A stretch of DNA of 64,000 nt. It comes from Pseudomonadota bacterium. GTDB taxonomy: Bacteria > Pseudomonadota > Alphaproteobacteria > Acetobacterales > Acetobacteraceae. Made by a program: the position numbers and the translations under genes. How positions within the stretch are numbered: position 1 is the first letter of the stretch; each line of letters starts with the position of its first letter. A model generated the notes under the pieces. The model was not told the DNA's origin, made no database searches, and was given only the letters and a program-made list of their open reading frames with translations. This document shows positions 3,090 through 62,375 of this stretch, in pieces. Location: NCBI GenBank assembly GCA_021805545.1, contig JAJZFB010000046.1:62001-126000 (forward strand). Reading direction: 5' to 3'.

Positions 3090-3226
3090 TGCTGCAAACT
3101 CTCCCTCACGCGCTGGGCCAGCCGTTAGCATCCCGGCTCGATTGCGGCAAAGCATGGCTGAGTTGTCCCGATGCTTGGCGGCGTGCTAGGCGGAAGAGAT
3201 GCAACGGATAGAGCCAGGGAGGAATT

Positions 3227-3877
3227 GTGTTCGGCAAACGCAAACCAGATGAGCCAGCGCCGGCCAAGCCGCAGCCATCACAGGCCACGCCAGAGGCTGT
3301 GATCGCCAGCACTCAGGCCACCCCGGAAGAAACAAGTCCGGCCGGTGCCCCCATCCCCCCCAGTTTCAAGGAGACTACCCTCATGGCTCGTTCCCCCTTC
3401 GCCCCGCCGCCCGTGCCGTCCACGCCAGCCAATCTGGTGCCGCCCGCCAATGTGCCACCCGCCAATGTGCCGCCAAGCATACCTTCCCGCGCCAGCTTTA
3501 CCGGCACACCCGCGCGTGAGCCGGTGGCGGACCGCCGCACCCTGGTGGTCGGCCGTGGCATCAGCGTGCAGGGCACGGTGCAGGATGCCGAGCGCCTGGT
3601 GGTGGAAGGCACGGTGGAGGCCAACAGCATCAACGGGCTGACGGAACTCTCCATTGCCCAGGGCGGCGTGTTCAAGGGCGAGGTCGAGGTGGAAGAATCC
3701 TAGATCGCCGGCACCATCGACGGCACGCTGGTTGCCCGCCAAACCCTGGTTGTGCGCGGCACTGGCCGCGTGCTGGGCACGGCGCGCTGCCGCCGCCTGC
3801 AGGTGGAAGATGGCGGGCAAATCACCGGCCGTATCGAAATGCTGGGCACCGACACCCCGCCTTCCACCGAAAATTGA
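3227..3877 (+). pseudogene. Bactofilin family polymer-forming protein, interrupted by an in-frame TAG codon
   Basis: Bactofilins are small cytoskeletal proteins that self-assemble through a right-handed beta-helix. From a GTG start preceded by GGAGG, the frame encodes a long Pro/Ala-rich N-terminal tail (about 1-95) and the first half of the bactofilin domain (RTLVVGRGISVQG... GGVFKGEVEVEES). A TAG stop at 3701-3703 cuts the domain in the middle. The same frame then continues for 57 residues (IAGTIDGTLVARQTLVV..., ...RRLQVEDGGQITGRIE) to TGA at 3875-3877, which is exactly the missing second half. The intact product would be about 216 residues. Options are a nonsense mutation, a sequencing error or amber readthrough. 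The encoded 158-residue fragment alone would lack half of the helix. Confidence 0.75.
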
Positions 3878-3905: not shown

Positions 3906-3964
3906 TTGACATATCCGTCATATCGTCTTCGTATGGCGCCTAACGATAACGTTAGGCGCCTTTT
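3906..3964 (+). terminator. Strong hairpin plus T-run, with TTGACA box just upstream
   Basis: GGCGCCTAACG (3935-3945) pairs perfectly with CGTTAGGCGCC (3950-3960) around a 4-nt loop and is followed by TTTT, a rho-independent terminator in the plus direction after the bactofilin. A consensus -35 TTGACA sits at 3906-3911, so the hairpin could instead fold in the 5' leader of the esterase gene starting at 3988; no good -10 is visible. Confidence 0.7.
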
Positions 3965-3987: not shown

Positions 3988-5871
3988 ATGCGTAAATACG
4001 CACTCGCCGCCACGGCCATTCTGGGGGTTGCGGCCAGCCTGCCGGCCCGCGCTGGCAGCCTGTATGTGTTTGGCGACAGCCTGTCCGATGACGGCAATTT
4101 ATACCATCTCATCGGTCTGCCGCCCGCGCCCTATTACGATGGGCATTTCTCCAACGGCAAAATCTGGGTGGAATATCTGCCCGGCCTGACTGACCTCAGC
4201 GGCTCTCCAACCGATAATTTCGCCTATGGCGGCGCCTTCACCGGCCCCATCACGGTAAATGGCACATATTACGGCACAAATCTGGAGGGCGCGAGCCTGC
4301 CCGGCATCAGCACGGAAATCGCCGGTTTCGCCGCCTCTGGCGGGCATTTCAGCGCGGGTGATGTGGTTACGCTCTGGGGCGGTGCAAATAATTACTTCCT
4401 TTACGCGGGTTTGGTGCAAGCCAATCCCAGCCAGGCCGTGCCGCTCGTCACCTCCGCCGTCAGCACCGCCATCACCCAGCTCACGGCGGATGCCACAAGC
4501 CTCGCCCAGCTTGGCGCGCGCACGCTCATCGTGCCGAATGTCCCTAATCTGGGCGAAACACCCGCTTATAACGGCTCCGCCCTGGGCACCGCGCTGGGCA
4601 ATGCCTTCGCCAGCCTGCACGATGCCGCCCTGCCCGCCGCCATGGAGCGCGTGCACAACGCCACCGGCGCCAATATCATCGTGTTGAACACCCAGCAGCT
4701 TCTCAACAACGTCATCGCCAACCCGTCTGTCTATGGTTTCACCAACGTCACCCAGGCCTGCATCAATGTCTCCGCATGCCTCAATGGCAGCGCCGCCACC
4801 CAGGCCGATTATGTGTTCTGGGACGGCGTGCATCCCACCACCCACGCGCAGAACTACATCGCCCGCTACGCCGCCACCTCTCTCAACGGGTTCGAGAGCC
4901 TGAGCATCCCCGGCCAGCTCGGCACACAAGGCGCACTGGATTTCAACACGCTGCTCGATGACCGCATGGATGCGCTGCGCGCCGGCGCCACCGGCTTGTC
5001 TTACAACATAGATGGCGCCACGGGCAGCAACGCCGCCCCAGACCAGAAGCTGGGCATCTTCATCAGCGCGGGCGGCGGGTTTGGCAACCGCAACAACAGC
5101 GATACGGCGCTGGGCTACAGCTATAACGACGCCGTGGTCGCCCTGGGTGCAGATTACCGCTTCACCCAGCACATCATGGCCGGGCTGGCGCTGGGCTATG
5201 GCAGCAACCACGCCAATATTAACGAGGGCGGAACGGTGCGCGACAATGCCTTCGAGCTCGGCCTGTACGGGCTGGCACAATGGAACCACGCCTATGCCAC
5301 GCTCGCAGCCTCTTACGGCCATGGCTGGTATAATACGCAAACCCCCGGCGTTATCGGCAATGCCCCTACCGGCAAGCCCACCGGCACATCCTACGCGGTG
5401 GATGCGTTCGGCGGCTATCTCTTCCCCGTGCTGCCCAGCCTGCAACTAGGGCCGGAAGCGGGGCTGACCTATACCAACACAGGCCTTGGCGCCTACACCC
5501 AAAGCGGCGACCCGCTACTGACGCAAAGCGTGTATTCCCAGGGCTATCAGCAGGTTTTCGCCACCACCTCGCTCGTGGTCAGCGGGCAATGGCAGGCTGG
5601 CGGCGTGGCGCTTTCGCCTTACGCCAAAATTGGCGCGCAAATCCTGCTCTCTGGCCGCAACGCCAAATTCACCAGCAGCTTTACCGGTGAGCCTGTAGTG
5701 GCCCTGACCAGCACCTACCCCAAGCTGCCGCCCGCCTGGGCGGTGTTCACGGTGGGCGCCAATGCCAGCATCACCCGCCAGCTTTCCGCCAGCGCCAGCC
5801 TGGACACCACCGGCTTCATGTCCACCGGCAACAGCCTGCTGCTCTCCGCGGGGCTGCGTTACAGCTTTTAA
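3988..5871 (+). CDS. GDSL-family esterase/lipase with C-terminal autotransporter beta-barrel
   Basis: 627 residues, an EstA-like type V secretion protein. A signal peptide (residues 1-22, cleavage after ARA) leads to the SGNH hydrolase domain. Block I is [10 protein letters not shown] with nucleophile Ser31. A GGANN block III-like motif provides the oxyanion Asn, and block V DGVHP carries Asp279 and His282. From about residue 345 the sequence becomes alternating aromatic/Gly strands typical of an autotransporter beta-domain, ending in LRYSF, the terminal beta-signal with C-terminal Phe. The protein is therefore predicted to sit in the outer membrane with the esterase facing outward. Substrate unknown; lipids or esters are likely. 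It converges on gshB with a 4-base overlap of stops. Confidence 0.9.
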
Positions 5872-10723: not shown

Positions 10724-12475
10724 TTATTCCCCCGCCATTTCACGGCGCCGCCTGTCCAATTCCTCGTTATAGCGCCGCAACGCGTATTGTTCCGTCAGCA
10801 GGCCAAGCACCTGGCGGGTTTCCGGCCCATCCAGCACGGCCAGTGCATCGGCCTGGGCCGCTTCAAATGCCGCCAGCGCTTCCTTCACGCTCTGGCCTGG
10901 CAGCAGAAACCGGTCCTGCAAATGCAAAATCGACTCGACCAGCCCATCCCCCGGCATGGCCGCCGCCTCGGCCGGGTAGGCAATTCCGGCATAGCGGCCC
11001 GCTTCGTCCGTCACCACGGCGCGCTGCGTGGCCCCCAGCGGCACATCCTGGCGGAAGGCGTCTATGCCGGCTTTGGCGCGCACCACCGCCGAAACCGGGC
11101 GCATCATCCGCCCCACCGTCAGCGCCTTCAGCCAGCCCACATCCACGGCGGAGCGAATCTGCTCGCCACGCAAATGGAACCGCCATGTGGCGAACGAATA
11201 GCCAAAAAAGCGCCGCACCGTTAGCGTGGCGGCAATCGAGGCCGCCAGCACCGCCATGGTCACGGCGAAATTCTGTGTGCTTTCCAGCGCCAGAAATGTC
11301 ATGGTCATTGGCCCGCCCACAATAGCGGCGGCCAGGCCGCTCATGCCCACCACGGCATAAAGCCCCGCGGGCATGGGGGTAATAAACGGTATAATGCCCA
11401 CCACGCCGGCAAACACCTTGCCAAACAAAGCCCCCAGAAACAGCGAGGCGAAGAATAAACCGCCGCGAAACCCGGCGCCGATGGAAAAAGCCGAGGCCAC
11501 AGCCTTGGCCAGCAATATGCCCAGCACCACAAAAAAGGGGAAAGACACATTTATATAGGCATGCAAGGCCGAATGGCCCGAGGACATGGCCTGCGGCGTA
11601 AGGCAGCCCATAAGCCCCACCACCAGCCCGCCCAGCGCCGCGCGCGCCCAAAGCGGAATTTTAGAGCGGCGGAACAAAACCTCGATGGATGTAACCCCGC
11701 GCATGATGGCAATGCCCGCCAGCCCGCAGGCCATGCCTTCGATGATAATGAGTGCGTAGGCGCTATTCGGCACGCTGGCGGGCAGGGTTACAATCAGCGG
11801 CGGCGAGGCCATGCCGGCAATTTGCACCGTAAGCGTGCCAGCCAGGGCGGCGATCACCACAAACAGCAAGGTGGCGATGGAGTACACCCCAATAATCAGC
11901 TCTATGCCATAAAACGCGCCGCAAAGCGGGGCGTTGAAGGCACCGCCAATGGCCGCCGCCGCGCCGCACCCCACCAGCACGCGCAAATCATTGCGCCGCA
12001 ACCGCAGAACCTGCCCCACGCGGGAGGCAACACCCGCGCCAAACTGGGCGTAACCCGCCTCCATGCCCACCGAGGCGCCCACCCCATTCGACCAAAGCGT
12101 CTGCACCGCCACAATAATGGAATCCTGCAGCGACATGCGGCCGCCATAAAGCGCGTTGGCCTCAATCGGGTCCACCAGATTATGCGGCCGCAGCTTGGCC
12201 AGCGCCCACATGGAAAGCCCCAGCACCAGCCCGCCCAGGCCCGGCACCAAAATGGTGCGCAGCGGCGGAAGGCTGGAGGATTCAGAAAGCCCCTGCCCCA
12301 ACGGCAGGGTAAACAAGGCCGCGTGCATCCAGCTCGTCGCGCTGTTAATGGCAACCACCCCCAACCCGCCCGCCACCCCAATCGCGGCGGCCAGCACGGC
12401 AAGCCACACCTCGTCCACCCGCACCATCGCGCGCAGCGCCTGCAAAATCATGGTGAAGGGTTTTATCTCACTCAC
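10724..12475 (-). CDS. ClC-family chloride channel/antiporter with C-terminal CBS region
   Basis: 583 residues. The first about 430 form the ClC membrane core with many helices. GVGASVGMEAGY corresponds to the gating-glutamate loop (canonical GREGP), so the Glu is retained while the flanking residues differ. CGAAAAIGGAFNAPLCGAFY and GAGFRGGLFFASLFLGALFG are the other ClC signatures. The remaining about 130 residues (VSAVVRAKAGIDAFRQDV..., VLDGPETRQVLGLLTEQYAL) look like a divergent CBS pair that could sense nucleotides. It probably moves Cl- and/or H+, possibly for acid resistance. Start codon is GTG, preceded by a GAGAG-like site. Confidence 0.88.
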   Translation of the reverse strand: MSEIKPFTMILQALRAMVRVDEVWLAVLAAAIGVAGGLGVVAINSATSWMHAALFTLPLGQGLSESSSLPPLRTILVPGLGGLVLGLSMWALAKLRPHNLVDPIEANALYGGRMSLQDSIIVAVQTLWSNGVGASVGMEAGYAQFGAGVASRVGQVLRLRRNDLRVLVGCGAAAAIGGAFNAPLCGAFYGIELIIGVYSIATLLFVVIAALAGTLTVQIAGMASPPLIVTLPASVPNSAYALIIIEGMACGLAGIAIMRGVTSIEVLFRRSKIPLWARAALGGLVVGLMGCLTPQAMSSGHSALHAYINVSFPFFVVLGILLAKAVASAFSIGAGFRGGLFFASLFLGALFGKVFAGVVGIIPFITPMPAGLYAVVGMSGLAAAIVGGPMTMTFLALESTQNFAVTMAVLAASIAATLTVRRFFGYSFATWRFHLRGEQIRSAVDVGWLKALTVGRMMRPVSAVVRAKAGIDAFRQDVPLGATQRAVVTDEAGRYAGIAYPAEAAAMPGDGLVESILHLQDRFLLPGQSVKEALAAFEAAQADALAVLDGPETRQVLGLLTEQYALRRYNEELDRRRREMAGE

Positions 12476-12518
12476 GGTCTCTCTGTTGCCATGGCCGCCC
12501 GTGCGCTAACAAGCCGCA

Positions 12519-13352
12519 ATGCCGGTATTTTCAACTACTCCGCCGCCTTTGCGCGACGTTATCAGCACTTTCAACCTGCGGGCGGATAAATCGCTCGGCC
12601 AGCATTTTCTGCTGGAGCCAGGGCTGCTGGCCCGCATCGCCGCGGCGGCGGGCGATCTTGCCGGGCTTAACGTGGTGGAAATCGGCCCCGGCCCGGGCGG
12701 GCTGACGCGCGCCTTGCTGGACGCCGGGGCGGCGCATGTCACCGCCATCGAGTTCGACCCGCGCGCCGTGGCGGCCATAACCGCGCTGGCCGGGCATACA
12801 GACAGGCTGAGCATTATCGAAGGCGATGCAATGAAGGCGGATATTCCCGCCCTGGTGCCCGCGCCACGCGCCATCGTGGCCAACCTGCCCTATAATATCG
12901 GCACGCTGCTGCTGGTGCGCTGGCTGCACCAGGCCGCCGCGTACCATTCCATGACCCTGATGTTCCAGCTAGAGGTGGCCGAGCGCATCTGCGCCGCCCC
13001 CGGCAGCAGCGCCTACGGGCGCATTTCCGTGCTCAGCCAATGGTTGTGCGAGGTATCAATGCAAATGCACATCCCCGCAGGGGCCTTCGCGCCCCCGCCA
13101 AAAGTGGACTCCGCCCTGGTAAGGCTGGTGCCGCGCGCGGCACAGCCCAGCGCGGCGGAGCTGCGGGCCATGGAACGGCTGACGGCAGCGGCCTTCGGGC
13201 AACGGCGCAAGATGCTGCGCGGCGCGCTTAAAGGGCTGGGCGGAGAAAAATTGCTGGAAACAGCGGGAATCGACCCGGCCCGCCGGGCAGAGACGCTGAG
13301 CGTGGCGGAGTTTGAGGAACTGATGCGGGCGCTGCTGGCGCGCGGGGGGTGA
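12519..13352 (+). CDS. rsmA: 16S rRNA dimethyladenosine transferase RsmA (KsgA)
   Basis: 277 residues. It dimethylates two adjacent adenines near the 3' end of 16S rRNA using SAM. KSLGQHFL at the N-terminus, the SAM-binding VVEIGPGPGG (residues 52-61) and catalytic NLPYNIGT (from Asn122) are all intact, followed by the C-terminal helical domain with FAPPPKVDSALV. It stands between the divergent ClC gene and the convergent ftsY gene and appears monocistronic. Confidence 0.96.
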   Translation: MPVFSTTPPPLRDVISTFNLRADKSLGQHFLLEPGLLARIAAAAGDLAGLNVVEIGPGPGGLTRALLDAGAAHVTAIEFDPRAVAAITALAGHTDRLSIIEGDAMKADIPALVPAPRAIVANLPYNIGTLLLVRWLHQAAAYHSMTLMFQLEVAERICAAPGSSAYGRISVLSQWLCEVSMQMHIPAGAFAPPPKVDSALVRLVPRAAQPSAAELRAMERLTAAAFGQRRKMLRGALKGLGGEKLLETAGIDPARRAETLSVAEFEELMRALLARGG

Positions 13353-61919: not shown

Positions 61920-62375
61920 ATGACGATTATATGGATGTTGCTGGCCGCGAAAGCGGTTTACTGCGCCATGGCGGCGCTGCCCAGTTTATTCTTTGTACGC
62001 GGCGGCGGCTGGCTGAAGGAAACCTACCGGCGGCGCGTGGAGCTTGGGCTGAACCGTGCCGCGATGAAGCTCGCGCGTGATTTTAACCCCGATGAAAGCT
62101 ATTTTGCCAACGGCGTGGGTTTGGCCGCGGATTTTTCCGGCCAGCGCTTTTTTGTGGCCGAGCGCGATGGCGGGCGGACCCAGGCGGCGATTTTACCCTT
62201 TGCGGCATTGCGCGGCGTGAAAAGCGGCGAGATGAACCAGAACGGCTTTTACGATATGTACGTGGAACTAAAGGTGGACCACCCGAAGCAGCAGCGCTGG
62301 CGGCTGCTGCTGGGCGAGAATGAGGCGCTGGTTGATGCCGTGAAGGCCACGCTGGGGCGCCTGCAAGCCGCCTGA
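61920..62375 (+). CDS. Membrane-anchored protein of unknown function
   Basis: 151 residues. One hydrophobic N-terminal segment (about 4-26, ending FFVRGGG) is followed by a basic, cytoplasmic-looking stretch (KETYRRRVELGLNRAAMKLA) and a folded beta-rich region with LPFAALRGVKSGE and LKVDHPKQQRWRLLLG. I do not recognise the family; a PH-like or YdbT-type fold is only a guess. It is flanked by divergent antiporter and convergent VIT transporter genes. Confidence 0.65.
   Translation: MTIIWMLLAAKAVYCAMAALPSLFFVRGGGWLKETYRRRVELGLNRAAMKLARDFNPDESYFANGVGLAADFSGQRFFVAERDGGRTQAAILPFAALRGVKSGEMNQNGFYDMYVELKVDHPKQQRWRLLLGENEALVDAVKATLGRLQAA

Follow-up and report, generated by a model that had tools for sequence, protein, structure and literature searches.

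A private in-frame amber codon interrupts an otherwise intact bactofilin gene in an Acetobacteraceae draft genome, probably as a recent nonsense allele

We observe that a gene for bactofilin, a cell-shape scaffold protein, in the genome of an Acetobacteraceae bacterium is interrupted by a single in-frame TAG that is found in no other genome examined, and we consider it most probable (at about 0.57) that this is an ordinary bactofilin gene turned into a likely null allele by a nonsense change of very recent date. The DNA analyzed here, called the window below, is a stretch of 64,000 nucleotides at positions 62001 to 126000 of a 173.5-kb contig, with the bactofilin site well inside the contig. 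The source assembly is a 96-contig draft of 2.79 Mb, described as metagenome-type, from a genus that also holds named Acidocella species; most of the relatives sampled are metagenome bins. Translation of the forward strand gives a frame from a GTG at 3227 to a TGA at 3875 to 3877 that consists of 158 codons, the TAG at 3701 to 3703 as the sole interruption, 57 further codons, and the TGA, without a frameshift. The initial annotation had described exactly this, a bactofilin split by an in-frame amber codon with an intact second half, and the description is confirmed by the translation together with a Pfam match across the stop. The features of the locus are as follows.

3216 to 3223, forward strand: putative Shine-Dalgarno-like AGGGAGGA, just 5' of the GTG start, proposed from its sequence
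3227 to 3700, forward strand: N-terminal part of the bactofilin, with a variable Pro-rich tail (residues 1 to 103) and the first half of the beta-helix (residues 104 to 158)
3698, forward strand: G-to-T change, by comparison with relatives, that replaces Ala158, near-invariant among them, with Ser
3701 to 3703, forward strand: private in-frame TAG at residue 159, where relatives have GAG or GAA (Glu), rarely Thr or Asp
3704 to 3877, forward strand: second half of the beta-helix (residues 160 to 205), a short tail, and the original TGA
3935 to 3964, forward strand: perfect 11-bp hairpin followed by TTTT, intrinsic-terminator-like, 3' of the TGA

The terminator-like hairpin, which has a near-identical counterpart in the nearest relative, lies after the TGA, as would be expected if one transcript spans the whole bactofilin frame. 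Directly 3' of the bactofilin is a gene for a GDSL lipase fused to an autotransporter beta-domain (3988 to 5871, forward strand), and this strong hairpin stands between the two genes.

With respect to the identity of the protein, the Pfam Bactofilin profile (PF04519) matches residues 107 to 203 across the stop with 60.7 bits (gathering cutoff, 27.9), with the piece before the stop covering profile positions 2 to 51 and the piece after it positions 54 to 97, while the 158-residue product alone scores 21.3 bits and thus falls under the cutoff. A profile search of the 2.79-Mb genome returned this frame as its sole PF04519 match, and a chance open frame is not a concern, since close homologues align over the full length. 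In an AlphaFold2 model of the read-through sequence, beta-helix strands are predicted from about residue 105 to 205, with pLDDT above 88 in most of the core, and the TAG falls in the middle of this predicted core. A PDB sequence search with the read-through protein gave no match; the best PDB structure matches are the bactofilins 6rib and 2n3d (Foldseek E of about 0.2 to 0.3, probability of 0.99 to 1.00). The protein shares with the family, including Caulobacter BacA (2N3D) and the Thermus bactofilin (6RIB), the profile match, the predicted beta-helix fold, and a disordered Pro-rich N-terminal tail, but differs from it in the TAG at residue 159 and in Ser158 in place of a near-invariant Ala.

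A search of the genus genomes found a bactofilin in 33 of 38, and the residue at the stop position is Glu in 108 of 109 aligned loci and Thr in the remaining one (a count that leaves out the window's own locus and includes several genomes twice), with Asp in two more distant members of the genus. This agrees with the expectation in the initial annotation of a sense residue such as Glu, Gln, or Lys at this codon, and the homologues continue past residue 159 rather than also ending there. In-frame TAA codons flagged in three genomes (G015, G018, and G020) were rejected, as they are the natural gene ends. The nearest relative, whose DNA is 92% identical over 2.5 kb, has GAG GCC GAG in place of the GAA TCC TAG of the window. 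Since no relative has a stop at this position and the nearest one has GAG, the sequence comparison indicates that the TAG is private to the window genome and derived by a single G-to-T change on its branch.

The two halves of the core have been under the same constraint. Comparison with the nearest relative gives nine synonymous differences and one nonsynonymous difference for codons 104 to 158, the part of the core before the stop, and the same numbers for codons 160 to 206 after it (dN/dS of about 0.04 after the stop); no relaxation after the stop was found, which is expected for a very recent event. The nonsynonymous difference after the stop affects a variable position, at which other relatives can have the residue of the window as well, and the one before the stop is Ala158Ser, a G-to-T change 3 bases from the TAG at a near-invariant residue. 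On the window branch, the core thus carries only two amino acid changes, both within one 4-base patch, a pattern compatible with a single multibase mutation and also with a single local error, between which the data do not discriminate. No template for the GAATCCTAG patch was found elsewhere in the 442 kb of genome read. Because nothing else in the gene has decayed, the stop is either very recent or not real, and the proposal in the initial annotation of a recent nonsense mutation or a base error is supported in this form by the private derived stop and the unchanged downstream constraint. The preservation of the downstream half had also been taken to argue for a very recent event or retained function; the first fits the equal constraint on both halves, and the second finds no support, as the past of the gene up to the event fully accounts for this preservation, which is no evidence of a present function.

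If the allele is a real one, Glu159 would have changed from GAG to TAG by a very recent nonsense change, possibly in a single event with Ala158Ser 3 bases away. Translation would end at the TAG and yield 158 residues that include just half of the beta-helix. This product should not polymerize, as it would lack the C-terminal filament interface, which makes a null allele the most likely state of the gene. That the organism truly carries the TAG is our inference, as is the expected loss of function of the half-helix, the latter by analogy with two proteins: in Caulobacter BacA, the F130R change at the C-terminal interface eliminates polymers as well as membrane foci and client binding (PMC12448750), and in Proteus, a C-terminally truncated CcmA deforms cells (PMC4372379). 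Loss of the bactofilin is plausible, since PF04519 matches were absent from 5 of the 38 genus genomes (G011, G027, G030, G031, and G034), two of which are at least 90% complete, and these absences suggest that such loss may be tolerated in the genus. Six genus members (G006, G008, G026, G028, G036, and G037) have a second, divergent bactofilin with 24 to 34% identity. Compared with nonsense alleles and young pseudogenes, the locus shows the same single in-frame stop, in one genome only and with both sides intact, and no difference except for the possibly linked neighboring substitution. With a real stop, this species would be a natural bactofilin null within a genus that commonly has the gene, and it could be used to learn the role of bactofilin in the shape of acid-living Acetobacteraceae.

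An error at a single base would be indistinguishable from a real nonsense change, and we regard it as possible, at somewhat longer odds than even, that the bactofilin is intact in the organism and that the consensus is wrong at 3698 and 3701, with low depth, a damaged read, or mixed strains as suggested sources. The fragmented draft and the metagenome bins around it are in line with such an error, as are the restriction of the stop to one genome and the intactness of the remainder of the gene, in which we found no further decay mutation that would mark a true pseudogene. It would also account for the fact that the only amino acid changes in a constrained core come from two G-to-T substitutions that lie 3 bases from each other, both at near-invariant residues. 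Several observations on the assembly speak against it, however, beginning with the position of the site deep within its contig. Of the 443 changes assigned to the window branch, 41 are G to T or C to A, as are 67 of 524 on the branch of the relative (about 15.5 kb aligned to both relatives), so that a global G-to-T damage signature is absent and nothing points to an assembly full of errors in general. Furthermore, those parts of the window that could be compared yielded no second conserved gene with an interruption; the comparison covered about 11,000 aligned residues for G017 and 12,000 for G003 and G005, which overlap in part and include some shadow frames. Other in-frame stops relative to G003 or G017 frames were judged on inspection to be shadow-frame or alignment artifacts. 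Should the stop be an error, its relevance would be limited to annotation, and what is known of decoding is unchanged whether the allele is real or erroneous.

Productive amber readthrough, also raised in the initial annotation, would mean partial decoding of the TAG by near-cognate Gln, Lys, or Tyr tRNAs or by an unseen suppressor, with a reduced amount of full-length bactofilin. It could call on the purifying selection on the half after the stop relative to the nearest relative, and bacterial genes have been described with functional in-frame stops around which dN/dS is maintained (PMC7918605), stops that the bactofilin TAG resembles in the low dN/dS around it. That study, however, set as a condition that a stop occur in at least two genomes, so as to exclude errors, whereas no second genome shares the bactofilin TAG, and the constraint may be entirely a legacy of the time before the mutation. 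In addition, TAG is an ordinary terminator in this genome, where 45 of 234 gene calls over 442 kb terminate with it, and release factor 1 is intact. The search for an amber suppressor found no CUA anticodon among the identified tRNAs of 40 tRNA matches, a set that is incomplete in the draft (some expected tRNAs, e.g., Phe and Ile, were not seen) and in which one match is weak and unrecognized by ARAGORN and one is long with a doubtful anticodon call. PylS of the pyrrolysine machinery was not detected in the genome search, and no inverted repeat was found within 3600 to 3800; the figures for tRNAs and stop codons come from searches and from sampled portions of the genome. Readthrough accordingly gains no support and is very unlikely, and the version in which the TAG is real, leaky decoding gives low levels of full-length bactofilin, and cell shape in the lineage depends on it is marginally less probable again. 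Least credible of all is a split gene, in which two half-proteins assemble together, the second made from an internal start after the TAG. The conservation of both halves speaks for it, but there is no in-frame ATG near the stop, the first possible starts beyond it in this frame are a GTG at 3752, which lies within a core strand, and an ATG at 3839 to 3841, close to the end, and no relative has a split gene.

The single strong candidate for a second broken gene was a TAG at 12508 (reverse strand) from the comparison with G003. It lies in the frame upstream of a ClC-type channel gene, and nothing is broken there, since the same stop recurs in several species. The frame continuous with the channel gene (10727 to 12889, reverse strand) runs for about 125 codons upstream past this TAG; its sequence is conserved across the genus and open, without the stop at 12508, in several species, and it is probably the antisense shadow of a neighboring gene.

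CTAG is strongly depleted in the window (positions 1 to 64000), with 10 occurrences against about 88 expected from dinucleotide shuffles, and the bactofilin TAG creates one of these ten. The depletion is milder over 442 kb of the genome, where 157 occurrences compare with 239 expected.
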